The notes beneath the pieces are model-generated. The model did not search any database. It was not told where the DNA came from and saw only the letters and a program-made list of their open reading frames with translations. Of a stretch of DNA of 64,000 bases, positions 1 to 41,602 are shown one piece after another. Numbering within the stretch: the stretch's first letter is position 1; each line of letters opens with the position of its first letter. Origin of the DNA: Couchioplanes caeruleus (GTDB taxonomy: Bacteria > Actinomycetota > Actinomycetes > Mycobacteriales > Micromonosporaceae); contig NZ_RJKL01000001.1 in assembly GCF_003751945.1 (NCBI RefSeq), forward strand, positions 7,892,501 to 7,956,500, given 5' to 3'. The position numbers were made by a program, and so were the translations under genes.

Positions 1-1306
1 CGACGCGGGCCACGTGCAGGCCCGACTCCTCGGCCAGTACCCGGCGGCGGTTCCACAGCGCCGTGTATCCCTCGGCACCCAACAGCGGTACGCGTTCGGT
101 GCACGAGCGTGGCACCGAGCGGCCCAGACCGTGGACGGCCGCGTCGATCGCGTCCTTGGCCATCACGCGGTACGTGGTGTACTTGCCGCCCGCCACCACC
201 ACGAGACCCGGGACCGGGCTGGCGACCGTGTGCTCGCGGGACAGCTTCGAGGTCGACTCCGACTCGCCGGACAGCAGCGGGCGCAGGCCGGCGTAGACGC
301 CCTGGACGTCGGTGCGGGTCAACGGGGTCGCCAGCACCTGGTTCACCTGGTCCAGCAGGTAGTCGATGTCGGTGCTGGACGCCGCCGGATGGGACTTGTC
401 CAGGGCCCAGTCGGTGTCCGTGGTGCCGATGATCCAGTGCCGGCCCCACGGGATCACGAAGAGCACGCTGCTCGGCGTGCGGGTGATCAGGCCCGTGGAC
501 GACTGGATCCGGTCGCGCGGCACCACCAGGTGGATGCCCTTGCTCGCGCGGACGTGGAACTGGCCGCGCTCGCCGATCAGCGCCTGGGTGTCGTCCGTCC
601 ACACGCCGGTCGCGTTGACGACCTGCTGGGCGCGGACCTCGAAGGTGCGGTCGTGCTCGAGGTCGTGCACCCGGACGCCGGTGACCCGTCCGCCCTCGCG
701 CAGGAAGCCCACCACCTCCGTGCGGGAGGCCACGTGGGCGCCGTACGACGCCGCCGTGCGGGCCAGGAACATGGTGTGCCGGGCGTCGTCGATCTGGGCG
801 TCGTAATACTGCAGCGCCCCGACCAGGGAGTCCTTCTTCAGGGCCGGGGCGGCCCGCAGCGCGCCGCGGCGCGACAGGTTGCGGTGCCGGGGCAGGCCGC
901 CGCTGGTGGTGGCCATCAGGTCGTAGAGCTGCACGCCGGTGCCCGCGTACAGCCGCTCCCAGACCCGGTGTTGCAGCGGGTAGAGGAACGGCACCGGGCG
1001 GGCCAGATGCGGCGCGAGCCGTTGCAGGATCAGGCCGCGTTCCCGCAACGCCTCGCGGACCAGCGCGAAGTCGAGCATCTCCAGGTAGCGCAGGCCACCG
1101 TGGATCAGCTTGCTGGAGCGGCTGGAGGTGCCCGACGCGAAGTCGCGCGCCTCGACGAGCCCGACGGACAGGCCGCGGGTGGCGGCGTCGAGGGCGCAAC
1201 CCGCGCCCGTCACGCCGCCACCCACGACAAGCACGTCCAGCTCGCCCTCGGCCATGGCGGTCAGGGCCGCCTCACGACCGGCGGGGGAAAGAGCTGTCTC
1301 AGTCAA
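1..1306 (-). CDS. glpD: Glycerol-3-phosphate dehydrogenase, FAD-dependent (partial: C-terminus beyond window)
   Basis: Oxidises sn-glycerol-3-phosphate to dihydroxyacetone phosphate at the membrane, passing electrons through FAD to quinone. Reading the minus strand, the protein opens with the Rossmann FAD motif [10 protein letters not shown], then the family signatures [16 protein letters not shown] and GTTDTDW. About 435 residues are visible of a usual 550-580, so the C-terminal domain lies outside the window. I chose TTG at 1306 as start because its codon run ([15 protein letters not shown]) reads naturally into the conserved core and overlaps the glpK stop by 8 nt, matching the glpF/glpK junction. 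ATG at 1255 is the alternative. It is the last visible gene of the glpF-glpK-glpD operon. Confidence 0.93.
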
Positions 1307-7351: not shown

Positions 7352-9061
7352 CTACCGGACGAAGCGTTCCCGGCGAACCGTGGGCCGGCGGCCCCGGATG
7401 GTGGCGTTCTGCATGGCCGCGATGACCGAGTCGGCTTCCGACTCGGGAACCTCCACCAGTGCGAAGCGATCGGTGATCTGGATGGCTCCGATCTCGCGGG
7501 CTCCGAGGCCGGACTCGCCGGCTATCGCACCGACGAGATCCTGGGGGCGCAACCCCGCCCGCCGGCCGATGCCGAAGAACAGCCGGGTCACGCCGGAATC
7601 GCGTCCGCTCCCGCCTCTTCGGGTGTCACGATCCGTCCCGCCTCCCCGGCTGTCACGGTCCGTCCTTTCTCCCCGGGCGTCACGATCGTGGCTGCGCCGC
7701 GGTGGCGTCGCTTCCGGGATCTCCTCCTCGGCGGCGTCACCGCCGGCCGCCTCGTGCAGGAGCTTGACCGCGGCGAGCGCGATGTTCTCGACGTCGAACT
7801 CGTCCGCGAGCGAGTCGATCACGACGCGGAACCGTTCCAGATCGTCGGCTTCCAGGCTGGCCTGCAGGGCCGCGCGGGTCAGTTCCAGACGCCGGGCCCG
7901 CAGATCCGTCACGGTGGGAAGCCGCTCCAGGGTGATGCGCCGTCCGGTCAGCCGTTCGATGGACTTGAGCATCCGCTGTTCCCGGGGTTCCGCCAGAGTG
8001 ATCGCGGAACCCTCGCGCCCGGCCCGGCCCACCCGGCCGATGCGGTGCACGTACGCCTCGGGCGCCACCGGCACGTTGACGTTGATGACGTGGGTCAACT
8101 GCTCGACATCGAGGCCCCGGGCCGCCACGTCCGTCGCGACGAGCAGCTCGGTGCTGCCGGAGCGCAGCCGCCCCATGACACGGTCGCGTTGATCCTGGCT
8201 CATCCCGCCGTGCAAAGCCTCCGCGCGGTACCCGCGCCCGTTCAAGGTCTCGGTGACCTCGTCCACCTCCTGCCGGGTGCGGCAGAAGACGATCGCCGAC
8301 GAGGGCGCCTCCACGTCCAGGATCCGCCCCAGAGCGGCCGCCTTGTGCGCGCGGGCCACGATGTAGGCGCTCTGTCGCACCAGAGGCATGTCACCCGGTG
8401 TGACGACCTCCCGACCCATCGTGATCCGGACCGGATCACGCAGATGGCGGCGCGCGATGCTGTCGATGCGGGGCGGCATCGTCGCGGAGAAGAGCACCGT
8501 CTGTCGGTCCTCGGGAGTCTCGTCGAGAATCGCCTCGATGTCGTCGGCGAAGCCCATGTCGAGCATCTCATCCGCCTCGTCGAGGACGACGGTACGCACG
8601 TCCCCGAGCCGCAGCGTCGCCCGTTCGATGTGATCGAGCACCCGCCCCGGCGTCCCGACGACGACGTCCACCCCGCGGCGCAGCGCCTGGAGCTGCCGGC
8701 CGATCGGCTGCCCGCCGTACACGGGCAGGACGCGCACGCCCAGGTCGCGGCCGTACCGGTGGACCGCCTGCGACACCTGCTCGGCCAGTTCGCGGGTGGG
8801 CACGAGAACGAGCGCCGCCGGCCCGGCATCCCGGGCGCCCTCCTCCAGCCGCTGCAGCAGGGGCAGGGCGAAGGCAGCCGTCTTGCCGGTGCCGGTCGCC
8901 GCCTGCCCGACCAGGTCGTTGCCTGCCACCAGCGGGGGAATCGACTCCTGCTGGATCGGTGTCGGTTCCTCGTAGCCCAGATTGGTCAGGGCACGGAGCA
9001 GCTCCGCCCGCAACCCCAGTCCGGCGAAACCCGCCTCGGAACCGATCGGGTTCTCGTCCAT
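7352..9061 (-). CDS. deaD: DEAD-box ATP-dependent RNA helicase with DbpA-type RNA-binding domain
   Basis: Remodels RNA duplexes, probably in ribosome assembly, RNA decay or cold response. Motifs in order: Q motif near residues 25-35 (GYEEPTPIQ), ATGTGKT (54-60), PTRELA, GTPGRVLDH, DEAD (160-163), SAT, TDVAARGLD and HRIGRVGRAG. After the two RecA domains comes a charged linker rich in RD/RG units (about 450-497), then a DbpA-type domain (VTRLFFGIGRRAGLRPQDLV onward) to the end at 569. On the minus strand TATCCT at 9069-9074 would place transcription start almost at the ATG, so the mRNA may be nearly leaderless. The linker is encoded by imperfect short repeats around 7600-7690. Confidence 0.96.
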   Translation of the reverse strand: MDENPIGSEAGFAGLGLRAELLRALTNLGYEEPTPIQQESIPPLVAGNDLVGQAATGTGKTAAFALPLLQRLEEGARDAGPAALVLVPTRELAEQVSQAVHRYGRDLGVRVLPVYGGQPIGRQLQALRRGVDVVVGTPGRVLDHIERATLRLGDVRTVVLDEADEMLDMGFADDIEAILDETPEDRQTVLFSATMPPRIDSIARRHLRDPVRITMGREVVTPGDMPLVRQSAYIVARAHKAAALGRILDVEAPSSAIVFCRTRQEVDEVTETLNGRGYRAEALHGGMSQDQRDRVMGRLRSGSTELLVATDVAARGLDVEQLTHVINVNVPVAPEAYVHRIGRVGRAGREGSAITLAEPREQRMLKSIERLTGRRITLERLPTVTDLRARRLELTRAALQASLEADDLERFRVVIDSLADEFDVENIALAAVKLLHEAAGGDAAEEEIPEATPPRRSHDRDARGERTDRDSRGGGTDRDTRRGGSGRDSGVTRLFFGIGRRAGLRPQDLVGAIAGESGLGAREIGAIQITDRFALVEVPESEADSVIAAMQNATIRGRRPTVRRERFVR

Positions 9062-31787: not shown

Positions 31788-32552
31788 TCAGGAATAGAAG
31801 CGGGCGGGCATGGCCGCCTGCCGGGCGGTCCGGTTGCGCAGGCGCAGGCGCAGCAGCAGGCCGACGCCGAGGAACACGAGCACCGCACCGACGATCAGGC
31901 CCGGTCCCAGCAGCGACGGCGTGCCGCCGCTGGACGAGGCCGGGACCCCGGCGATGGTGTCGCCCGTCCGATCGGGCTGCGGCGTGGCCTCCTCGTCCTC
32001 GGCGGCGGACTCCTCCGGCTCCGGCGACGGCGACTCGGTGGGTGTCGTGGAGCGCTCCTGCCCGACGACGGGACTCTGCCCCGACGTCTCCTGTAGCAGG
32101 GTGCCGCCCGCGGTGAACGCCTGGGACGCGAAGACGACCCGGCCGCTCTCGGCGTCGTCGTCGATGCTGACCCGGTAGCGGGCGGTGACCGTACGGCCAC
32201 GGCACAGCTCGCCCGGGTCGAGCTGCTGGTCGGTGATCCGCGCGATGTCGTCGTCGCGCTCGACCTGGACGGGGAAGTCGTCGTCGTCCTCCACCCGCTC
32301 CACCTCGACCTCGTCGAGGTCGGGGCCCTCGACCTGCAGTACGAGCGACCACCGCACCTTCTGGCAGCGGCGGCGGTCGCTCGACGCCACGACGGTGAGG
32401 GTCCGGCTCTCGGCTCCGGCCCCGAAGGTCGGCGGCAGCTCGGTGATGCGTACCTCGAAGCCGGGTTCCACCGCGGTGGCCCGGCCGGGAACGGCGAGGG
32501 TCGCCACGGCCACGGCCAGGGCGGTCGCCGCCAGCGCAGCGCGATGCCGCAC
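31788..32552 (-). CDS. Secreted, membrane-anchored protein of unknown function
   Basis: The 254-residue protein has a signal peptide (MRHRAALAATALAVAVATLA... to about residue 28) and an extracytoplasmic beta-rich domain with two cysteines (RRRCQKVRWSL and GELCRGRTVT), in which acidic runs such as VEDDDDFPVQVERDDD stand out. A Pro/Glu/Ser-rich stalk follows, then a C-terminal helix (GPGLIVGAVLVFLGVGLLL) with a basic cytoplasmic end. I prefer GTG at 32552 because GAGGAG lies 9 nt upstream. ATG at 32561 would be directly adjacent to that SD. It is divergent from the cytochrome/redox cluster and may be a surface component of it, but I do not recognise the family. Confidence 0.72.
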   Translation of the reverse strand: MRHRAALAATALAVAVATLAVPGRATAVEPGFEVRITELPPTFGAGAESRTLTVVASSDRRRCQKVRWSLVLQVEGPDLDEVEVERVEDDDDFPVQVERDDDIARITDQQLDPGELCRGRTVTARYRVSIDDDAESGRVVFASQAFTAGGTLLQETSGQSPVVGQERSTTPTESPSPEPEESAAEDEEATPQPDRTGDTIAGVPASSSGGTPSLLGPGLIVGAVLVFLGVGLLLRLRLRNRTARQAAMPARFYS

Positions 32553-32561
32553 AGCAATCAT

Positions 32562-32959
32562 CTCCTCACGGAACGTCGTCGATGGACCCGCATCACGAGG
32601 TAGTTCGGCGCAGCGGCGCGAAAGGTTCACCGCGAGCGCAGGATCACTGCCGCCGAGACATTCTCTTTCGCCGCTCTTAAGGTGCTCTGGTGGGCATCCT
32701 CCCTGGTCAAAGCCGTTTGGCGTGGGTGGGTTACCAGGCCCGTGCACACTCGCCGGTAATTAAGTTCCGGAACGTTCATCCGAACCGGCCCGCCACACGT
32801 AGATGGGGGAGGGCAGGGACCGGCGACGACGCACCGTGAGGAAAGGAAGGACACCTACCGGACCGCCCGACAGTAACGAGCGCGGGGCATCCCCCACGGA
32901 TGCCGGCGTCTGCGAACGCCCACGACGGACGCCTTGACCGCTGCGGAGAACGAGGAGCC
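32562..32959. other. Divergent promoter region between the anchored protein and the redox operon
   Basis: About 400 bp with lower GC in its middle (TCTTTCGCCGCTCTTAAGG, GGTAATTAAGTTCCGG), and no good coding frame. A short hairpin GCATCC-CCCAC-GGATGC lies at 32887-32903, about 60 nt before the cytochrome ATG. GGAACGTTC near 32768 could be part of a promoter or operator. I found no recognised riboswitch consensus. Confidence 0.4.
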
Positions 32960-34894
32960 ATGGCCCGGACGAAGACGCAAGAACGATCCACCAGTCGGGT
33001 GGACGTCGAGATGGGATCCACGGGTGGCCGGACACCACCCTCCAAGCTCACCGTCGCCCTGTTCGGCACGTCGATCCTCGCGGCGCTGTGGTCCGTGATG
33101 ATGCTCATCCCGGCCGGCCGCGTCGCATGGGTCTACATCTTCTACTACCTCGAGTTCTACATGGGCGTCGTGTCGCTCGTGTCGCTCTCGATCACGATCA
33201 TGGTCGGACTGGTCTCCACCGACCGCCTGGTGCTCTCGATCCGCCAGCGCCTGCTGCTGCAGTCCGCCCACCGGACCACCGGCGTCATGGCCATCGCCGC
33301 CCTCGGCGTGCACGTCTGGACCAAGTTCGCCGAGGAACACATCGGGCTGATCGACATCTTCATCCCGTTCATGTACCAGGGCTTCAACAGGGTCTTCGTC
33401 GGGTTCGGCACGGTTTCCGGCTGGATCATGGTGATGGTGATGTGGACCGGCATCGCCCGGGCCCGGTTCATCGGTCGCGGCAAGCCGTGGATGTGGCGCG
33501 CCGTGCACAGCGTCTCCTACCTGATGTGGCCGATCGCCCTGCTGCACGGGCTCAACGCGGGCCGGCCCGCCGCCGCCTGGGTCAACGTCAGCTACGTCGT
33601 CTGCGTGCTCGGCGTACTCATCGGCCTCGCGGTCCGCATCGCGGTCAGCCTCAACCGCCGCAAGGACTTCGCGTCGCAGGCGGGCACGGCGGGCGGCGGC
33701 ACCGGCGGTATGAAGCCGGTCGGCGCGATGGCGTCCACCGCGCCCATCGCCAAGGGCCGCGGTGCGCGTACGCGGCGTGAGGACCCGATGGTCTCCGACC
33801 GTGGCAACGCCGTAGAGGCATGGGTGCCCGCCGCCCCGGCCCGTCCCGCCGAGCCCGCCGCCCGGCCGGCCAAACCGTCGGAGCCCGCCCCGGTCAGCGC
33901 CGCCCCGGTCGACGCGCCGCCCGCCGAGCGCCGCCCGCGCCGCCGCGTCGACGAGGACGAGCGCGCCCGGCGCCGCCGCGACTTCGACGACGCGCCCACG
34001 CAGCGCTGGGAGTTCGAGGACGAGGACGAGATGCCGGCGAGGCGCTCCCGCTACGCCGACGACGCCCCGGCCCCGCGCCAGCGCCGCGCCGCCGCGGCCG
34101 AGCGGTTCGACGAGCCGACCCGGCCGATCTCGCGCCGCGCCCTCGAGGAGAGTCCGCGCCGCTACGCCGACGACGACGAGATGCCGGCCCCGACCGGCCG
34201 CCGCCGGGCCGGCGACGCCTACGAGGAGACTCCCCGTCCCCGCTCGCGCCGCCACGCCGACGCCGAGCTCGACGACGAGCCGGCCCCGCGCTCCCGGGGC
34301 CGCCGCCACGCGGGCGACGACGACGCCGCGACGGTCCCGCGGGGCCGCCGGGCGCCGGACGACATGCCGCGGTCGCGGTACGCCGACGACGAGCCGGCGC
34401 GGCCCCGCCGGTATGCCGACGACGACCGGTACGCCGACGACGACCGGCACGCCGACGCCCCGCGCCGCCGCGCCGCCCGGTACGCCGAGGACGAGCCGCC
34501 CCGCCCGGCGCGTTCCTCCCGCTACAGCGAGGAGCGTCCCGTCCGCGAGACGCGTTCCCCCCGCTACACCGAGGAGGACGACGATGCGCCCCGGGCCCGG
34601 CGCGACCGGGGCGCCGACATCGATCGCGCCGACTCGGGGCGGCACAGCCGCAGCGAGTTCGTGGACCTGGCCGGTGGGGAGCCGGCCGGCGACTACGACG
34701 ACCCGAACTACATGGAGCCCGACGAGACGCCGACCCTCGTGGACATGGCGCAGCGGCGGGCCCGCAAGGCGACACAGCAGGAACCCGTGCGTACCGGGTC
34801 GGGCCGGGGGGCCCGCCGGGGATCCCGGTCACGTACGACCGATGAGGCGGCTGACGACCGGTACTGGGCGCAGTTGCGAGGGGAAGCACAGTGA
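32960..34894 (+). CDS. b-type cytochrome / ferric-reductase-like membrane protein with long R/D-rich tail
   Basis: The 644-residue protein has two parts. Residues about 30-240 hold roughly six hydrophobic helices with paired histidines suited to heme b: AHRTTGVMAIAALGVHVW and AVHSVSYLMWPIALLHG, as in ferric-reductase/cytochrome b561-like domains. Residues about 245-644 are disordered and polyampholytic, with a recurrent RYADD unit (RRYADDDEMP, SRYADDEPARP, RYAEDEPPRP, RYTEEDDDAP; about eight copies) interrupted by R-rich stretches. ATG at 32960 follows GAGGAG at 32952-32957. The stop is TGATG, overlapping a 21-codon ORF, which in turn overlaps the NuoF-like gene. It probably moves electrons across the membrane for the downstream thiol/ferredoxin proteins. 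Confidence 0.8.
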   Translation: MARTKTQERSTSRVDVEMGSTGGRTPPSKLTVALFGTSILAALWSVMMLIPAGRVAWVYIFYYLEFYMGVVSLVSLSITIMVGLVSTDRLVLSIRQRLLLQSAHRTTGVMAIAALGVHVWTKFAEEHIGLIDIFIPFMYQGFNRVFVGFGTVSGWIMVMVMWTGIARARFIGRGKPWMWRAVHSVSYLMWPIALLHGLNAGRPAAAWVNVSYVVCVLGVLIGLAVRIAVSLNRRKDFASQAGTAGGGTGGMKPVGAMASTAPIAKGRGARTRREDPMVSDRGNAVEAWVPAAPARPAEPAARPAKPSEPAPVSAAPVDAPPAERRPRRRVDEDERARRRRDFDDAPTQRWEFEDEDEMPARRSRYADDAPAPRQRRAAAAERFDEPTRPISRRALEESPRRYADDDEMPAPTGRRRAGDAYEETPRPRSRRHADAELDDEPAPRSRGRRHAGDDDAATVPRGRRAPDDMPRSRYADDEPARPRRYADDDRYADDDRHADAPRRRAARYAEDEPPRPARSSRYSEERPVRETRSPRYTEEDDDAPRARRDRGADIDRADSGRHSRSEFVDLAGGEPAGDYDDPNYMEPDETPTLVDMAQRRARKATQQEPVRTGSGRGARRGSRSRTTDEAADDRYWAQLRGEAQ

Positions 34895-34959
34895 TGCAGC
34901 GCAGGGGATTCATCAGGGGACGCCGCGGCCTGGCCGCGTGGAGCGGGGCGTCGGCGTGA
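34894..34959 (+). CDS. 21-codon coupling ORF between the cytochrome and NuoF-like genes
   Basis: ATG at 34894 overlaps the cytochrome stop (TGATG). The frame encodes 21 residues (MQRRGFIRGRRGLAAWSGA plus SA), very basic at the N-terminus. Its TGA at 34957-34959 overlaps the GTG start of the NuoF-like gene (GTGA). It could be a translational relay letting ribosomes reach the downstream start, or a short membrane-associated peptide. It is too short for homology judgement. Confidence 0.45.
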   Translation: MQRRGFIRGRRGLAAWSGASA

Positions 34960-36428
34960 GCGGCAGCAAGGTTCCGCCCGTCACCTCGATCGGCACGCCG
35001 CGGCTCACGGCGGGGTTCGACGAGTACGGGCGGCTCGACCTCCTGGCGCACCAGGAGGTGCACGGCGGATTCGCCGCCCTCTCCAGCGGGGAACTGATCG
35101 GCCTCGCCGACCGGATCGAGCTGCGCGGGCGCGGCGGCGCGGGATTCCCGTTCGCCCGCAAGGTGCGCGCGGTGCTCGACTCGTGCCGGCGCCAGGACCT
35201 GCCGCCGATCATCGTCGTCAACGCCACCGAGGGCGAGCCGCCCTCGTGGAAGGACAAGGCGATCCTCACCCGGGCGCCGCATCTGATCCTCGACGGCGCC
35301 GCGCTGGCCGCGGCCGCGCTCGACGCCGAGGAGATCGTGATCGGCGTCGCCGACGACGGCATCGGCCAGGACTCGCTCGCCGCGGCCCTCGCCGAGCGCC
35401 GGATGCCGGTGCCCACCCGGATCGTCACCGTGCCGCACCGGTTCATCTCCGGTGAGGGCGGCGCCCTGGTCCGCGGCATCAACGGCGAAGCGCACATCCC
35501 GCCCGGGCGCAAGGTGCGCTCCAGCGACAACGGCGTCGCGGGCCTGCCCACGCTGCTCTCCAACGCGGAGACCTACTCGCAGCTCGCCATCGCGGCCCGG
35601 CTGGGGCCGTGGGAGTACAACGCGGTCGGCATCCCCGAGGAGCCGGGCACGGTCATGCTGACCGTCGGCGGCTCGTCGACCGCCCCCGCCGTGGTCGAGG
35701 CACCCACCGGTACCCCGCTCATGGAGGTGCTGGAGATGTGCGGCGCGGACATCGGCCCCGGCCTGCTGGTCGGCGGCTACCACGGCAAGTGGATCAGCGC
35801 CGAGGCGGCCAAGACGGTCACCATCTCGCGCAAGGGGTTCGCCAAGGTCGGCGGCACGCTCGGCGCCGGCATGCTGATCCCGATCGGCTCGCAGACCTGC
35901 CCGCTGGGCGAGGTCGCCCAGGTCGTGCAGTATCTCGCCGGCGAATCCGCCGGACAGTGCGGCCCGTGCCGGCTCGGCCTGCCCGACCTGGCCCGGGCGG
36001 TGACCCTGGTGGCGCTCGGCGGCAGCGCCCTGGAGAACGTGCGCCAGGCCGCCGGCGTGGTCAAGGGCCGCGGTGCGTGCAGCCACCCGGACGGCACCTC
36101 GCGCTTCGCCCTCTCCGCGCTCGAGGTCTTCGCCCGCGACGTCGAACTGCACGCCAACGGCGAGGGCTGCGGCAAGCAGGTACGGGGCATCCTGCCGCTG
36201 CCGTACCACCAGCAGCAGGGCGCGCGGAAGCTGGCGCTGGACTGGTCGCGGTGCGACGGGCACGGGCTCTGCTCGGCGGTCGCGCCCGAGATCATCCGGC
36301 TGGACGCGAACGGCTTCCCCGCGTTCCCGCAGACCCCGCTGCCGCCGTGGCTGGAGAACGGCGCGCGCAAGGCCGTCAACGTCTGCCCGGCCCTGGCGCT
36401 GCGGCTCACGGAGGCGGGCAAGAAGTGA
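34956..36428 (+). CDS. NuoF-like iron-sulfur flavoprotein fused to a ferredoxin domain
   Basis: The 490-residue protein resembles the NADH-binding subunit of complex I but stands alone. Visible features are the FMN loop RGRGGAGFPFARKV, the ATEGEPPSWKDKA segment, the altered nucleotide loop ISGEGGALVRGING (complex I has GEETAL), an SLBB-like region, and the cluster motif ESAGQCGPCRLG with the distal RGACSHPDG. The first of the three clustered cysteines of complex I (ESCGxCxPC) is Ala here. After about residue 430 comes a small ferredoxin domain, CDGHGLCSAVAPE...VNVCPALAL (C-x5-C...CP, 3Fe-4S style). The GTG start at 34956 overlaps the previous stop. The stop overlaps the TlpA start (GTGA). It likely passes electrons between NAD(P)H or ferredoxin and the cytochrome. 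Confidence 0.83.
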   Translation: MSGSKVPPVTSIGTPRLTAGFDEYGRLDLLAHQEVHGGFAALSSGELIGLADRIELRGRGGAGFPFARKVRAVLDSCRRQDLPPIIVVNATEGEPPSWKDKAILTRAPHLILDGAALAAAALDAEEIVIGVADDGIGQDSLAAALAERRMPVPTRIVTVPHRFISGEGGALVRGINGEAHIPPGRKVRSSDNGVAGLPTLLSNAETYSQLAIAARLGPWEYNAVGIPEEPGTVMLTVGGSSTAPAVVEAPTGTPLMEVLEMCGADIGPGLLVGGYHGKWISAEAAKTVTISRKGFAKVGGTLGAGMLIPIGSQTCPLGEVAQVVQYLAGESAGQCGPCRLGLPDLARAVTLVALGGSALENVRQAAGVVKGRGACSHPDGTSRFALSALEVFARDVELHANGEGCGKQVRGILPLPYHQQQGARKLALDWSRCDGHGLCSAVAPEIIRLDANGFPAFPQTPLPPWLENGARKAVNVCPALALRLTEAGKK

Positions 36429-37027
36429 GAGTCAGGGTCCTGCTCGCGACGGCCGCCGTGCTCGCGGCGGCCGGCTGCGGCACCACCGCGGCTCCCGCGG
36501 CCCCGCCGCCCGCGGCCGTGCCGTCTACCGCCGTGCCGTCTACCGCCGTGCCGTCTACCGCTCCGCCCTCTGCCGCCGCGCCGTCCGCTCCGGGGCCGGC
36601 GGGCGGGGCAGCGGCCGTCACGGTGCCCGCGTCACTGACGTTCACGGGCCGGACCCTCGACGGCAAGCCGTTCGACGCCGCCACCCTGGCGGGCAAGCCC
36701 ACGATCCTGTGGTTCTGGGCGCCGTGGTGCGCGACCTGCGCCAGCCAGGCCATGTCCATCGCCGACGTCCGCGAGGAGTACGGCGACCGCCTCAACATCC
36801 TGGGCATCGCCGGCATGGGCGGCAACAAAGAGATGCACGAGTTCGTCTCCGACCTCGAGGTGGGCTCCGTGCCCCACCTCGACGACGAGCCCGGCGAACT
36901 CTGGAAGAAGTTCGGCATCACCGAGCAGAGCACGTACGTGATCATCGACCGAACCGGCCGAACCGTCGTCTCCGGCTACCTCGACGATCTGCAGCTGACG
37001 TCGAAGGTCAAGGCTCTGGTGGCCTGA
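36425..37027 (+). CDS. TlpA/ResA-like thioredoxin-fold lipoprotein
   Basis: An extracytoplasmic thiol-disulfide oxidoreductase anchored by lipid. The 200-residue protein has a signal peptide with lipobox LAAAGC (Cys about 18), an Ala/Pro linker with three tandem PSTAV-type units (36521-36560), and a thioredoxin domain with WCATC (about residues 101-105) in the LWFWAPWCATCASQAMS context. The cis-Pro appears in the VGSVPHLDD region. GTG at 36425 overlaps the NuoF-like stop by 4 nt, so translation is coupled. CcdA, its usual electron donor, is encoded 3 nt downstream. Role: receives reducing power from CcdA and reduces exported disulfides, possibly for cytochrome maturation. Confidence 0.92.
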   Translation: MRVRVLLATAAVLAAAGCGTTAAPAAPPPAAVPSTAVPSTAVPSTAPPSAAAPSAPGPAGGAAAVTVPASLTFTGRTLDGKPFDAATLAGKPTILWFWAPWCATCASQAMSIADVREEYGDRLNILGIAGMGGNKEMHEFVSDLEVGSVPHLDDEPGELWKKFGITEQSTYVIIDRTGRTVVSGYLDDLQLTSKVKALVA

Positions 37028-37030
37028 GCT

Positions 37031-37894
37031 GTGGAGGCGCCGCTGCTGCTCGCGCTCACGGCCGGGATGCTCGGTGCCGTCAACCCGTGCGGCTTCGCGC
37101 TGCTGCCGGCGTACCTGTCCGTCCTGATGGCCTCGGACGACGGCGGGCCGAACCGGCCGCGCGCGGGTCTCGCCGCCCTGCGCCGGGCCCTGGGCTGCAC
37201 GGCCGCGCTGACGCTGGGCTACGTCACGGTCTTCGCGGGCTTCGGCCTGGTCCTCACGCCGCTGGCGGGGTGGCTGCAGCCGCGCCTGCCGTGGCTGACC
37301 GTGGTCCTCGGGGTGGGCCTGGCGCTGCTCGGCGGCTGGCTGCTCGCGGGCCGGTCGCTGCCCGTGCCGGGCCGGGGGATGCGGGCGCCGCGGTTGACCG
37401 GCACGGCGGCGTCGATGGTGCTCTTCGGCATGGCGTACGCGGTGGCGTCGCTCGGCTGCGCGATCGGGCCGTTCCTCGCGCTCGTCGCCTCGAGCCTGCG
37501 CGCGGGATCCGTCGGCGCGGGCCTGGCACTGTTCGTCAGCTACGCGGCGGGCATGGGGCTGGTCATCGGCGTCACCGCGGTCGCGGTCGCGCTGGTCCGG
37601 GTCTCGGCGCTGGCCCGGCTGCGACGGCTCGCGGCGTACGTCCCCCGGGCCGGCGGCGCCGTGCTCGTGGCCGCCGGCGCGTACGTGGCCTACTACGGCT
37701 GGTACGAGCTGCGCCTCGTCGGCGACCGGCGCGCCTCCGGGCGCGATCCCGTGGTCAACGTCGCCTCGGACCTCCAGCGGGAGCTGAGCGACCTGGTCGC
37801 TCGGGTAGGCGCGGGCTGGTTCGTGCTCGCGCTGGCCGTCCTCGTGCTGGCCGCGCTCCTGCTGTCGCGCCGCCGCACCCCGGCGGGAGGCTGA
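37031..37894 (+). CDS. ccdA: CcdA/DsbD-type membrane thiol transporter
   Basis: Transfers electrons from cytoplasmic thioredoxin across the membrane to extracytoplasmic thiol proteins. The 287-residue protein has about seven hydrophobic segments and the two conserved redox cysteines: GAVNPCGFALLPAYLS (Cys near 20) and VASLGCAIGPFLALV in the fourth helix region. The C-terminal third (RDPVVNVASDLQRELSDLV followed by a last helix) extends beyond a minimal CcdA of about 240 residues. GTG at 37031 lies 3 nt after the TlpA stop, and the kinase gene begins 6 nt after its own stop. The partner is almost certainly the adjacent TlpA. Confidence 0.92.
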   Translation: MEAPLLLALTAGMLGAVNPCGFALLPAYLSVLMASDDGGPNRPRAGLAALRRALGCTAALTLGYVTVFAGFGLVLTPLAGWLQPRLPWLTVVLGVGLALLGGWLLAGRSLPVPGRGMRAPRLTGTAASMVLFGMAYAVASLGCAIGPFLALVASSLRAGSVGAGLALFVSYAAGMGLVIGVTAVAVALVRVSALARLRRLAAYVPRAGGAVLVAAGAYVAYYGWYELRLVGDRRASGRDPVVNVASDLQRELSDLVARVGAGWFVLALAVLVLAALLLSRRRTPAGG

Positions 37895-37900
37895 TCGATC

Positions 37901-39679
37901 GTGGACATCGCGGACCGCGCGGACCCGCTGCGCCGGGGCGACCCCGGGTGGCTGGGCGAGTACCGGCTGCTCGGCCGGCTCGGCTCGGGCGGCATGGGCG
38001 TGGTCTACCTGGCCGAGGACCGCGACGACGCGCTCGTCGCGATCAAACTGATCCACTCCTCGCTGTCGCACGACCCGGAGTTCCGGCACCGGTTCCGCAG
38101 TGAGGTCGAGCGCGCCCGTCAGGTGCCCTCGTTCTGCACGGCCGAGGTGCTCGACGCCGACCTCGACCACGATCCGCCGTACCTGGTCGTCGAGTACGTG
38201 GACGGGCCGAGCCTGGCCGACGTGGTGGAGGAGCGGGGCCCGCTGCGGTCCGCCGCGCTGCACTCGCTGGCCGTCGGGGTGGCCACCGCGTTGTCCGGCA
38301 TCCACGGCGCCGGCGTCATCCACCGCGACCTCAAACCGGACAACGTGCTGCTCGCGCCGGGCAGCCCGAAGGTGATCGACTTCGGCATCGCCCGGGCCTT
38401 CGAGGCGACCAGCCAGCTCACGCGCACCGACCAGATGGTGGGCACGGTGGCGTACATGGCGCCGGAGCGGTTCTCGTCCGACCCGGGCACGGCGCTGACC
38501 GCGGCGGCGGACGTGTTCGGGTGGGGCTGCGTGGTGGCGTACGCCGGCACCGGACGGACGCCGTTCCAGGGCGACTCGCCGACCTCGACCGCCGCCCGGA
38601 TCCTCACCCAGCCGCCGCATCTGGACGGCCTGCCGCAGCCGCTGCGGGACCTGGTCGAGCTCGCCCTGGCCAAGGACCCCCGGGACCGCCCGAGCGCCCG
38701 GGAACTGGTGGACCTGCTGCTGGGCGACCGTCCCGCCGTACGCCCGCCGGCACGGCCGCAGGCCCCGGCCGCCGCACCGCCGCGGCCGCAACCCCCGGCC
38801 GCCGCACCGCCTCGGTCGGCACCTCACGACCACCGGACGCTCGTCGCTCTCGACCGCCGGACGCTGGTCGCGGCGCCGGGCGGTGGCGCACCGGCGCCGG
38901 CCCGCGGTGGGCGCGCCCGCGGCCACACCCTGCTGGCCACCCTGGCCGTGCTGCTCGTCCTCGCCGGCATCGGCACCGTCGGCTTCGTGCTGAACGCAGG
39001 CGCGAGGAGCCGTACGCCGATCGCGACGTCGCCTTCCCCGGGCGGCGGCGTGGGGGCCGGAGCGCAGACGTCCCCGGACCCCTCCGAGGAGCGGGAGCCG
39101 GAGGAACCCACCGGCGGCGAGCCGCTCATCCAGGACTCCCTGGACCGGCCCGGGCAGTGGTTCGACAGCCAGACCCGCGCGGGGGACGCCCGGTGCGTCA
39201 CCCGCGGTGGTCTGCGCGCCGAGCTGGCCGGCAGCGGCGCCTTCCAGTGCCTCGGGCCCACCGACGACGTTCCGGACGACGCCGGGATCGAGGTGAGCAC
39301 CACCCTGCTGACGGCCGGGAGCTGCGCCGTCATCTGGTTCCACTGGGACGACGAGGCCGGCGGTCAGGCCCTGGACGTCTGCCAGGACGAGATCGCTGTG
39401 GCCACCGACACGCCGTCCGGCCGTAGCGTCCTGGGCCGCGTGCGGCTCGAGGACCGTGTCCCGCTGCGGGAGCCGACCCGGATCCACCTCGTCGTGCGCG
39501 AGGGAGCGGCCCAGGTCTTCCTGGCAGGCGAGTTCGTGGGCAAGCTCGCCCTGCCCGGCGGCGGTCCGGACACGGGCCAGGTCAGGCTGGGTCTGAGCGC
39601 CGAGGAGGAGGGCGCCGGTCCGCCGTACGCGGTCAGCTTCGCCGACGTCGACATCCGCTCCCTCCCGGCCGCAGGCTGA
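37901..39679 (+). CDS. Receptor Ser/Thr protein kinase (PknB family) with four-cysteine ectodomain, copy A
   Basis: The 592-residue transmembrane kinase has a Hanks-type domain (about 20-275) with GRLGSGGMGVVY, the catalytic HRDLKPDN (about 141-148), VIDFGIAR and GTVAYMAPE. A Pro/Ala juxtamembrane stretch precedes one helix (about 341-365). The external domain (about 400-592) carries four Cys (ARCVT, FQCLG, GSCAV, DVCQD) and an end PYAVSFADVDI resembling a concanavalin/LamG-like sandwich. There are no PASTA repeats. GTG at 37901 begins 6 nt after ccdA, so it likely belongs to the redox operon. A paralogue with the same architecture follows. The ectodomain could sense a sugar, redox state or cell-wall signal; this is inference. 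Confidence 0.93.
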   Translation: MDIADRADPLRRGDPGWLGEYRLLGRLGSGGMGVVYLAEDRDDALVAIKLIHSSLSHDPEFRHRFRSEVERARQVPSFCTAEVLDADLDHDPPYLVVEYVDGPSLADVVEERGPLRSAALHSLAVGVATALSGIHGAGVIHRDLKPDNVLLAPGSPKVIDFGIARAFEATSQLTRTDQMVGTVAYMAPERFSSDPGTALTAAADVFGWGCVVAYAGTGRTPFQGDSPTSTAARILTQPPHLDGLPQPLRDLVELALAKDPRDRPSARELVDLLLGDRPAVRPPARPQAPAAAPPRPQPPAAAPPRSAPHDHRTLVALDRRTLVAAPGGGAPAPARGGRARGHTLLATLAVLLVLAGIGTVGFVLNAGARSRTPIATSPSPGGGVGAGAQTSPDPSEEREPEEPTGGEPLIQDSLDRPGQWFDSQTRAGDARCVTRGGLRAELAGSGAFQCLGPTDDVPDDAGIEVSTTLLTAGSCAVIWFHWDDEAGGQALDVCQDEIAVATDTPSGRSVLGRVRLEDRVPLREPTRIHLVVREGAAQVFLAGEFVGKLALPGGGPDTGQVRLGLSAEEEGAGPPYAVSFADVDIRSLPAAG

Positions 39680-39688
39680 GCGCAAGTG

Positions 39689-39705
39689 TCGGTTGCGCAG
39701 CAACC
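39689..39705 (+). terminator. Stem-loop after kinase A
   Basis: CGGTTGC (39689-39695), GCA loop, GCAACCG (39699-39705): a perfect 7-bp stem 9 nt after the kinase stop. It is modest in strength and may attenuate rather than end transcription into kinase B. Confidence 0.5.
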
Positions 39706-39832
39706 GGAGCACGGGTCTTCGCGCGCAGTGACAGCGCCCGATAGGGTGCCATCCTGACGGGGGTGATCCTCCGCGTCCATGCGGCGCGGAGAGGGTGGCG
39801 ATCGAGCCGCCGGGGGCGTAGGAGCAGCGATC

Positions 39833-41602
39833 ATGACGGACGAGCGGACGACCCCGCTGCGCCCGGGAGACCCGAGCCGGCTCGGGCGGTACGAGCTGAT
39901 CGGCCGGCTCGGCGAGGGCGGCATGGGCACCGTCTATCTGGCGCGGGCCGACGGCACTCTGGTGGCGGTGAAGATGGTCCGCGCCGACCTCGCGTCCGAC
40001 GACGCGTTCCGGCGCCGCTTCCGCAGCGAGGTCAACCGGATCCGCCAGGTGCCGCCGTTCTGCACCGCCGAGATCCTCGACGCCGACCCGGACTACGAGC
40101 AGCCCTACCTGGTCGTCGAGTACGTCGACGGGCCCAACCTCGCCGACGTGGTCGCGGAGCGCGGCCCGCTGACCGCCGCCAACCTGCACGGCGTCGCGAT
40201 CGGGGTGGCCACGGCGCTCACCGCGATCCACGGCGCCGGCGTCATCCACCGCGACCTCAAGCCGCGCAACGTCCTGCTCGCCCCGGGCAGCCCGAAGGTC
40301 ATCGACTTCGGCATCGCCCGGCCGATGGAGGCCACCAGTGGGCACACCCAGACGGGCGAGGTCGTCGGGACCGTCGCGTACATGGCGCCCGAGCGCTTCG
40401 GCGACGACACGACGCTGATCACCCCGGCCGCCGACGTCTTCGCGTGGGGCGGGGTGGTCGCGTACGCGGGCACCGGTCGTACGCCCTTCGGCGCCGACTC
40501 GCCGGCCGCGACCGCGGCCCGGATCCTGACTCGCCCGCCGGACCTGGCCGGCCTGAGCGGGCCGTTGCGCGACCTGGTCGCGCACGCCCTGGAGAAGGAT
40601 CCGGCCAACCGGCCCACCGCCCGGGAACTGCTCGACCTGCTCGTCGCGGGCCCGCGACAGCCGGCACCCGCCGCGGCGGCGCTGGCACACCAGCCGGGCC
40701 TGCGCGTCGCGGCGGAGGAGGCCCAGGCGGCCACCGGGTATCACAGCGCCCGCCAGTTGACCGCGCTCGCGCCGCAGAGTGAGCTGGTCGGATACACCGA
40801 GGACGCGATCGTCACCCAGCCGGTGCCGCCCTCGCCGGTGGCTCCCCCGACCCCGTTCGGTCACGATCCGCATCCGCGGCGGCGCTGGGTGCTGCCGGCG
40901 GCGGTGGCCCTGCTGCTGGTGGCGCTCCTGGCCGCGGGCGGTCTCACCGCGAAGTTCTGGCCGCGGGGCGGTGGCGGCGCGGCGGGCGGGGTGGCGGCGA
41001 CCACGACCCCGGCGACCGAAAGCGGGCAGGTGGTTCGCGGCGGAGCCGGAAACCCGCCGCTGCTGACGGACGAGCTGCGGCGGCCGCGGCTCTGGCAGGC
41101 CTCCAACGACCGCAAGGAGAAGGCCACCTGCTCCTTCCGCGACGGCCTGGTCGTGCGCCGGGAGAAGAGCGGCGTCTACCGTTGCCGGGGCCCGCTCGAC
41201 GCCGTGCCGGACGACATGCGGGCCGAGGTCGGCGTCCGGATTCTGACCCCGGACAGCTGTGCCACCATCTGGCTGCGCTTCCGCGGCGTTCAGGGATACC
41301 AGGTCCGCGTCTGCGAACGCAACGTCTACATCGGTACGCACAAGTCGGCCGACATCCAGGTGCTCCGGACCTTCCCGCTCGACGACGCCCCGCTGAGCGT
41401 CGGCGGCGCACCGACGAAGATCACGCTGAACGTGGTCGGGGGCATGCTCGAGATTCTCCGCGACGGCAAACCGGTCGGCAGCGTACGGCTCACCGACCGG
41501 GACCTCACGAGCGGGCGGGTCGTGCTGGGCATCTACACGGAGCAGTGGGCCCGCGAGGACGGCCCGTACGAGGTGGCGTTCTCGGACATCACGATCTGGT
41601 AG
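39833..41602 (+). CDS. Receptor Ser/Thr protein kinase (PknB family) with four-cysteine ectodomain, copy B
   Basis: A 589-residue paralogue of kinase A. The kinase domain has GRLGEGGMGTVY, HRDLKPRN (about 139-146), VIDFGIARPMEAT and GTVAYMAPERF. The usual catalytic-loop Asn and DFG Asp are intact. After a linker of about 70 residues comes one helix (VLPAAVALLLVALLAAGGL, about 352-370), then an ectodomain with four Cys in the same order as in copy A (ATCSF, YRCRG, DSCAT, RVCER), ending PYEVAFSDITIW. ATG at 39833 follows GGAGC about 9 nt upstream. The 153-bp gap from kinase A holds a hairpin and a -10-like TAGGGT at 39742, so it may have its own promoter. Confidence 0.93.
   Translation: MTDERTTPLRPGDPSRLGRYELIGRLGEGGMGTVYLARADGTLVAVKMVRADLASDDAFRRRFRSEVNRIRQVPPFCTAEILDADPDYEQPYLVVEYVDGPNLADVVAERGPLTAANLHGVAIGVATALTAIHGAGVIHRDLKPRNVLLAPGSPKVIDFGIARPMEATSGHTQTGEVVGTVAYMAPERFGDDTTLITPAADVFAWGGVVAYAGTGRTPFGADSPAATAARILTRPPDLAGLSGPLRDLVAHALEKDPANRPTARELLDLLVAGPRQPAPAAAALAHQPGLRVAAEEAQAATGYHSARQLTALAPQSELVGYTEDAIVTQPVPPSPVAPPTPFGHDPHPRRRWVLPAAVALLLVALLAAGGLTAKFWPRGGGGAAGGVAATTTPATESGQVVRGGAGNPPLLTDELRRPRLWQASNDRKEKATCSFRDGLVVRREKSGVYRCRGPLDAVPDDMRAEVGVRILTPDSCATIWLRFRGVQGYQVRVCERNVYIGTHKSADIQVLRTFPLDDAPLSVGGAPTKITLNVVGGMLEILRDGKPVGSVRLTDRDLTSGRVVLGIYTEQWAREDGPYEVAFSDITIW

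Follow-up and report, generated by a model that had tools for sequence, protein, structure and literature searches.

A candidate NAD(P)H-driven electron exporter with an interchangeable acceptor side in Couchioplanes caeruleus

A 64,000-nucleotide stretch of the actinobacterium Couchioplanes caeruleus (contig NZ_RJKL01000001.1, positions 7,892,501 to 7,956,500; hereafter the window, whose own positions serve as coordinates) contains an operon for a membrane cytochrome, a NuoF-like protein fused to a ferredoxin domain, a TlpA-like thioredoxin and a CcdA-like membrane protein. We think it probable that this operon encodes an NAD(P)H-driven transmembrane electron exporter with an interchangeable acceptor side, whose outlet in the window is probably thiol-based. 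The operon consists of two modules: a core formed by the cytochrome and the NuoF–ferredoxin protein, and TlpA with or without CcdA. The core appears to be a well-conserved, modular electron-export unit; a relay through all four gene products is plausible, with only its first half evolutionarily fixed.

The cytochrome and the NuoF–ferredoxin protein

The cytochrome is of the six-helix, four-histidine diheme type of the MsrQ/ferric-reductase (PF01794) superfamily, as judged by phmmer searches, which connect it to PF01794 proteins, by its conserved histidines and by a structure model. In Foldseek and VIA-align comparisons it has the same two-heme core as NOX and STEAP proteins. The protein itself has no Pfam or NCBIfam match at E 0.001. 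Among relatives, whose loci are given L-numbers, the PF01794 cut-off is exceeded by the cytochromes of two loci with an unfused NuoF (L108 and L112), while those of two further unfused loci (L103 and L110) and one fused locus (L093) fall below it.

The last helix is followed by a disordered tail of about 400 residues, rich in Asp, Arg and Glu and presumably cytosolic. Measured between the beginning of the core alignment and the stop codon, the protein spans 278 to 683 residues across 69 rows from the same family, three frame-broken rows being left out. Despite this variation in length the end of the tail is near-constant: the motif [YF][WFL]xx[LMI][RK]G[ED] lies within the last 22 residues at 66 of 72 own-family loci, the misses being L044, L118 and L138, which look frame-broken, L119, L126 (YWAQLRGT, shifted one position) and L145. 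The DNA pattern of this cap has a single match in the genome, at this locus. In two other actinobacterial families, f19 and f21, a related FWxx[LMI]R end is retained in 3 of 12 f19 rows (L089, L092, L106), and the motif is kept in none of the six f21 rows. The idea that the cap's RGE merely reflects the Shine–Dalgarno sequence of nuoF was dropped, as the codons vary synonymously; this variation therefore points to a constraint at the protein level, beyond the ribosome-binding site alone. The tail is probably a tether for the NuoF protein, with the conserved cap as a putative docking hook.

The NuoF protein matches PF01512, PF10589 (51.4 bits against a cut-off of 23.5) and PF13459, which bears out its first-pass annotation as a NuoF-like protein with an added ferredoxin domain. 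Its structure model (predicted local distance difference test score 85) matches NuoF subunits of complex I and NuoEF. In an alignment of 80 NuoF rows, two of which (L092 and L107) come from truncated gene calls, cysteines 315, 335, 338, 375 and 405 are invariant; C315 occurs in ordinary NuoF as well. Residue 332, the position of the first N3 cysteine in complex I, is Ala in 77 rows and Ser in 3. Taking the complex I N3 motif to be the four-cysteine CxxCxxC...C, the motif of the fused NuoF is incomplete, with three of the four cysteines present. The five unfused, ApbE-linked NuoFs that were aligned (L103, L108, L110, L112 and L113) have SAGxCGPC in common, and loss of the first N3 cysteine is therefore shared by the examined cytochrome-linked NuoFs, fused or unfused. 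The ferredoxin domain contains Cys 433, 439 and 477, with His436 at the fourth-cysteine position, the arrangement seen in [3Fe-4S] ferredoxins.

The window protein is no mere paralogue of the complex I subunit, the possibility that might have explained it away. A separate complex I NuoF with the canonical cluster motif (ESCGKCTPC) is encoded elsewhere in the genome and is 27–28% identical to it. Both have the NuoF fold and the glycine motif of the flavin mononucleotide (FMN) site, but the window protein differs by the missing first N3 cysteine, by its fused ferredoxin and by its cytochrome partner.

Distribution of the core pair and its partners

Full-length NuoF–ferredoxin fusions of at least 50% identity, partial matches being set aside, were found in 48 of 394 genomes sampled evenly across the class (3 from the window's own family, 15 from f19 and 30 from f21); Streptosporangium and Micromonospora are among the named protein matches. 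Within the own family, 60 of 121 genomes carry the fusion. These genomes hold 61 core loci if only fusion-grade matches are counted, leaving out 20 lower matches (40–45% identity, 230–265 bits). A six-frame census covered 93 fused loci in the three families, with 11 unfused loci for comparison; its hidden Markov models were partly built from the loci scored, and the f19 and f21 loci come from 12 of the 15 and 6 of the 30 genomes, respectively. The cytochrome lies beside the fused NuoF at 48 of 50 orthologous Actinoplanes-type loci (L004–L053; both misses are contig ends), at 24/24 other own-family loci, at 6/6 f21 loci and at 11/13 f19 loci, the remaining two being L089, where it is 1.7 kb away, and L117, a second copy in its genome that lacks it. 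The prediction that the genes recur beyond close relatives thus holds for the core pair, conserved in three actinobacterial families.

Gene order is the same at most of the 50 Actinoplanes-type loci, which is why the frames of the window are taken as real genes; three additional loci (L054–L056), with matches of only 25–27%, stand outside this set. By its matches the genome of the window is likewise of the Actinoplanes type within the Micromonosporaceae. Identity to the window is 89–100% for NuoF (84% at L047, 69% at L050), 61–93% for the cytochrome core (52% at L050) and 55–91% over the best segment for TlpA.

The closest described systems are MsrQ-like clusters, which according to excerpts of Meheust et al. 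2021 (PMC8238504) were found via ApbE or FMN-binding genes and of which 31 include a NuoF-like protein. Clusters of this subset, also from Actinobacteria, likewise pair a diheme membrane protein of the PF01794 type with a NuoF-like donor carrying PF10589. The window operon differs in its NuoF-fused ferredoxin, its long capped tail and the absence of ApbE nearby, and fused loci instead adjoin genes for thioredoxin or for DUF4142, DUF1996 or Lipoprotein_15 proteins. ApbE lies within 4 kb at none of the 93 fused loci, as against 9 of the 11 unfused ones. The first ApbE model was built from one sequence; a nine-sequence model also found ApbE at 0/93 fused loci at E 10, and recovered three positive controls. 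Cytochrome, NuoF and ApbE occur together at 8 of the 11 unfused loci, several of which have a separate three-cysteine ferredoxin gene. FMN_bind is absent from the window cluster, the other loci not having been searched for it, and the ApbE and FMN_bind matches of the genome sit together about 1.6 Mb from the operon.

Since its cluster has no ApbE or FMN-binding gene, the operon is not filed as a member of a flavinylation system. By its parts and arrangement it would work like the MsrQ-like/NuoF-like system, and it is a version, free of flavinylation, of an export design that is already known and driven by NAD(P)H. The first-pass statement that no named system has this composition thus needs qualifying: such clusters were described in 2021, but, in those excerpts (PMC8238504), as defined by ApbE or FMN-binding genes. 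At the level of titles and abstracts, no flavinylation-free NuoF–MsrQ system was apparent in the literature searched, nor, among papers on DUF1996, DUF4142 and cytochromes, any electron-transfer operon. The term NuoF is absent from the main text of a 2024 flavinylation preprint, as far as the portions consulted extend (PMC10979944), and a desferrioxamine paper was, on a partial view of it, unrelated (PMC12161575).

The second module is less uniform. TlpA is present at 45 and CcdA at 29 of the 50 Actinoplanes-type loci: 28 have both, 17 TlpA only (one of them, L044, ends 1.9 kb after nuoF), one CcdA only and four neither. Mapped onto a tree of 69 NuoF rows, presence or absence of TlpA takes seven changes, fewer than in any of 500 shuffles; gains and/or losses therefore recur. 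Of the 13 f19 loci, 12 have DUF4142, 12 have DUF1996 and six have Lipoprotein_15; the six f21 loci have DUF4142 at one, DUF1996 at two and Lipoprotein_15 at two. Two own-family loci, L127 and L147, combine DUF4142 with Lipoprotein_15, and L147 additionally has DUF1996. Recurrence near the core pair suggests redox roles for these three families. Genes of this kind were noted near the pair at L088–L094, L106, L107, L114–L116, L127 and L147, some together with extracytoplasmic function (ECF) sigma factor genes. At L126 a DUF305 gene (7921–8457) lies directly 3' of nuoF, where other loci have TlpA or exported proteins.

TlpA has an AhpC-TSA/thioredoxin match in Pfam and an active-site motif, W-C102-A-T-C105, whose cysteines are conserved. 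It is probably a lipoprotein with lipobox Cys18, a residue aligned in 58% of 45 near TlpA rows. It lacks the cis-Pro; EQST, with Q168 and S169 conserved among relatives, occupies the site where thioredoxins carry their cis-Pro loop. The window CcdA has no Pfam or NCBIfam match at E 0.001, and none in Pfam even at E 10. Its L086 orthologue, 60% identical over 260 amino acids, exceeds the cut-off of PF02683 (DsbD_TM), and this together with the conserved pair Cys20 and Cys143 confirms the CcdA call; the protein would act as a CcdA-like thiol transporter. Both features of such a pathway, a CcdA with two membrane cysteines and an extracytoplasmic CxxC thioredoxin, are thus present in the window.

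Proposed electron route and alternatives

In the proposed mechanism, two electrons would pass from NAD(P)H to FMN in the cytosolic NuoF domain, and then singly through an N3-like Fe–S cluster to the fused ferredoxin domain. The ferredoxin domain would reduce the inner heme (His104/183) of the MsrQ-like cytochrome, whose two stacked hemes would carry electrons to the outer heme (His118/196) and on to an extracytoplasmic acceptor, while the capped tail would hold the NuoF protein at the cytochrome. The acceptor may be swapped among relatives, which have TlpA (alone or joined by CcdA) or DUF4142/DUF1996/Lipoprotein_15 proteins next to the pair, or no recognisable partner. The window's own outlet would probably serve thiol-based upkeep or repair on the outer side of the membrane; CcdA would reduce TlpA, and the cytochrome might do so too. 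The protein families, conserved ligands and linkage pattern are established. We infer all of the electron transfers, the tether and the nature of the acceptor, the route itself from homology and order.

Several observations weigh against this scheme. Direct Foldseek matches of the cytochrome are weak, none having E < 0.001; b6f and designed helical bundles score about equally well in VIA-align; and searching the PDB with a profile of aligned cytochromes gave nothing at E 1. Linkage of the second module is patchy: of the 61 core loci in the 121 genomes, 18 have TlpA next to them and 13 have CcdA. The 24 other own-family loci were hand-chosen, many for TlpA absence, and as their 4/24 with TlpA is biased, 18/61 is the fair figure. 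Uncorrected for kinship, the fusion is associated across the 121 genomes with the presence of TlpA (Fisher p 5e-5) and of the TlpA–CcdA pair (34/26/18/43, p 0.003). Finally, no exported partner was recognised at 27 of 58 fused rows in a hand-picked set.

So many loci lack such a partner that the electrons may end up on a quinone, O2 or Fe(III) instead of on a neighbour's product. A quinone acceptor is a reasonable rival on the same ground: the pair might be an NADH:menaquinone reductase feeding or draining the quinone pool, with TlpA and CcdA as unrelated neighbours sharing its transcript. In the parts of PMC8238504 consulted, MsrQ is the quinone-binding subunit of a periplasmic methionine sulfoxide reductase, in keeping with this idea. 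The pair is repeatedly linked to proteins that belong outside the cytoplasm, namely TlpA in several clades, DUF4142 and DUF1996 in f19, and DUF4142 at two own-family loci; this speaks against the quinone rival, which we regard as unlikely. Extracellular reduction of O2 or Fe(III) by a NOX- or ferric-reductase-like enzyme is, to our mind, quite improbable. It would fit the shared two-heme core, and SpNOX is described, in the sections consulted, as a bona fide NADPH oxidase (PMC5676040); but no FNR-type domain was found on the cytochrome in Pfam and NCBIfam scans, and according to the same sections the acceptor that bacterial NOX-like proteins use physiologically may be something other than O2 (PMC5676040). 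MsrPQ and SpNOX share the two-heme FRD core with the window cytochrome, whose donor is a separate NuoF–ferredoxin protein in place of Fre or an FNR domain fused to the chain. MsrP was not recognised among the operon products in the same scans, the genome itself not having been searched for it.

A third alternative, possible though doubtful, is that two independent modules share one transcript, an exporter and a CcdA–TlpA thiol pathway, which both serve in envelope stress and exchange no electrons. Of 65 TlpA–CcdA pairs in the 121 genomes, 52 are located away from the core, which favours this view and, with the patchy linkage, speaks against the full set as one obligate relay; of the trans-membrane relay in the first-pass annotation, the conserved cytochrome/NuoF pair is supported. 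In the pneumococcal CTM operon, CcdA cooperates with TlpA and MsrAB2 and no exporter of this kind takes part, according to the parts of PMC10543277 seen. That CcdA–TlpA(Etrx)–MsrAB operon of Streptococcus pneumoniae resembles the window in its CcdA and surface thioredoxin, but the window set has no recognised Msr product, an attached electron-export pair and a TlpA without cis-Pro. Against independence stand the genome-level association of core and TlpA and the 17 of 50 Actinoplanes-type loci that keep TlpA but not CcdA next to the core; this hints at another TlpA reductant, although CcdA may lie elsewhere in those genomes. Heme-to-TlpA transfer may occur, or CcdA could serve TlpA alone. A bolder version of the exporter, in which the cytochrome gives single electrons directly to the thioredoxin-type lipoprotein (heme to dithiol, beside or instead of CcdA) and the exporter of sister lineages serves DUF4142/DUF1996/Lipoprotein_15 proteins, we consider rather unlikely.

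If the exporter reading is true, MsrQ-like/NuoF-like export is not bound to covalently flavinylated carriers and would be a general power supply for varied extracytoplasmic redox proteins. It would also give an electron-transfer context to the unexplained families DUF4142, DUF1996 and Lipoprotein_15, and the powering of reduction outside the actinobacterial membrane would be directly testable with two genes.

Gene layout, coupling and the upstream region

Direct reading of the frames bore out the overlaps and gaps given in the first-pass annotation (Table 1). Its count of five joined frames stands as to layout, but the fifth is a 21-residue mini open reading frame (mini-ORF) whose peptide is not conserved, and the idea of a functional peptide was dropped on that ground. 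From its position, the mini-ORF is a putative translational coupler. An in-frame GTG at 34891, upstream of its ATG, overlaps the cytochrome stop by 4 nt. A bridging mini-ORF is found at 10 of the 13 usable own-family loci with a cytochrome–nuoF gap (not at L050, L120 or L143), and the peptides are unrelated. The bridged gaps (28, 43, 52, 55, 61 and 73 nt) are all 1 modulo 3, as bridging requires. The bridge stop overlaps the nuoF start in nine of the ten, and at L046 the bridge ends 9 nt inside nuoF. At 26 of 50 Actinoplanes-type loci nuoF is called with a direct 4-nt overlap.

Table 1. Features of the operon and its surroundings (window positions unless residues are given)
Feature	Position	Strand	Remarks
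upm, divergent gene	31788–32561	−	start codon uncertain
Promoter-like pair TGAACC-N16-CGAAC, for upm	32603–32629	−	footprint of 48 aligned intergenic regions
Promoter-like pair GTTCATCCG-N15-CGTA, for operon	32774–32801	+	same 48-region footprint
Leader hairpin	32886–32904	+	7-bp covarying stem, loop CCCAC
Cytochrome	32960–34894	+	ATG start; frame read directly
Cytochrome core	residues ~29–242		six transmembrane helices, diheme, FRD/MsrQ-like; His 104/118/183/196
Tail C-terminal cap YWAQLRGEAQ	34862–34891	+	motif conserved across own family
21-residue mini-ORF	34894–34959	+	ATG; bridges cytochrome stop and nuoF start
NuoF–ferredoxin	34956–36428	+	GTG start; 4-nt overlap with mini-ORF
Ferredoxin domain Fer4_15	NuoF residues 428–483		C-terminal, three-Cys
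TlpA	36425–37027	+	GTG start; 4-nt overlap with nuoF
CcdA	37031–37894	+	GTG start; 3-nt gap after TlpA
Ser/Thr kinase	37901–39679	+	GTG start; 6-nt gap after CcdA

The divergent gene upm, kept at 47 of 50 Actinoplanes-type loci, encodes a signal sequence, an extracytoplasmic domain, a Pro/Glu linker and a C-terminal transmembrane helix, with no Pfam match above cut-off. Two of its cysteines are near-invariant in the 47 aligned rows (C64 in 46, C118 in 47), and we speculate that Upm is a thiol substrate or partner of TlpA. Between upm and the operon, two conserved promoter-like elements point away from each other; by their look both would be ECF-type promoters, and GTTCATCCG-N15-CGTA has its only match in the 8.4 Mb genome here. 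ECF sigma factor genes occur near the core pair at L089, L106, L127 and L147, and a zf-HC2/RskA-like anti-sigma gene at L088 (picked genes in each case); these neighbours therefore suggest that the operon is under envelope-stress control. Allowing up to three mismatches, the Rex operator consensus has no match in the window.

In the leader hairpin, 204 of 210 pair cells are standard over 30 distinct segments, against 62–92 of 210 in slid controls; three of 33 segments were dropped where the pattern chose another site, and L047 is without a match. The stem changes on both sides at four pairs while the CCCAC loop is constant. The hairpin has no Rfam match above the gathering threshold; a 12 kb search gave three sub-gathering matches, judged to be chance.

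Downstream, the kinase gene follows the operon this tightly in some of the closest relatives of the window and in no others. Two receptor-type Ser/Thr kinases lie there in tandem (37901–41602), and their ectodomains, compared by eye, share four similarly placed cysteines; the pair is a possible candidate for an extracytoplasmic redox sensor.

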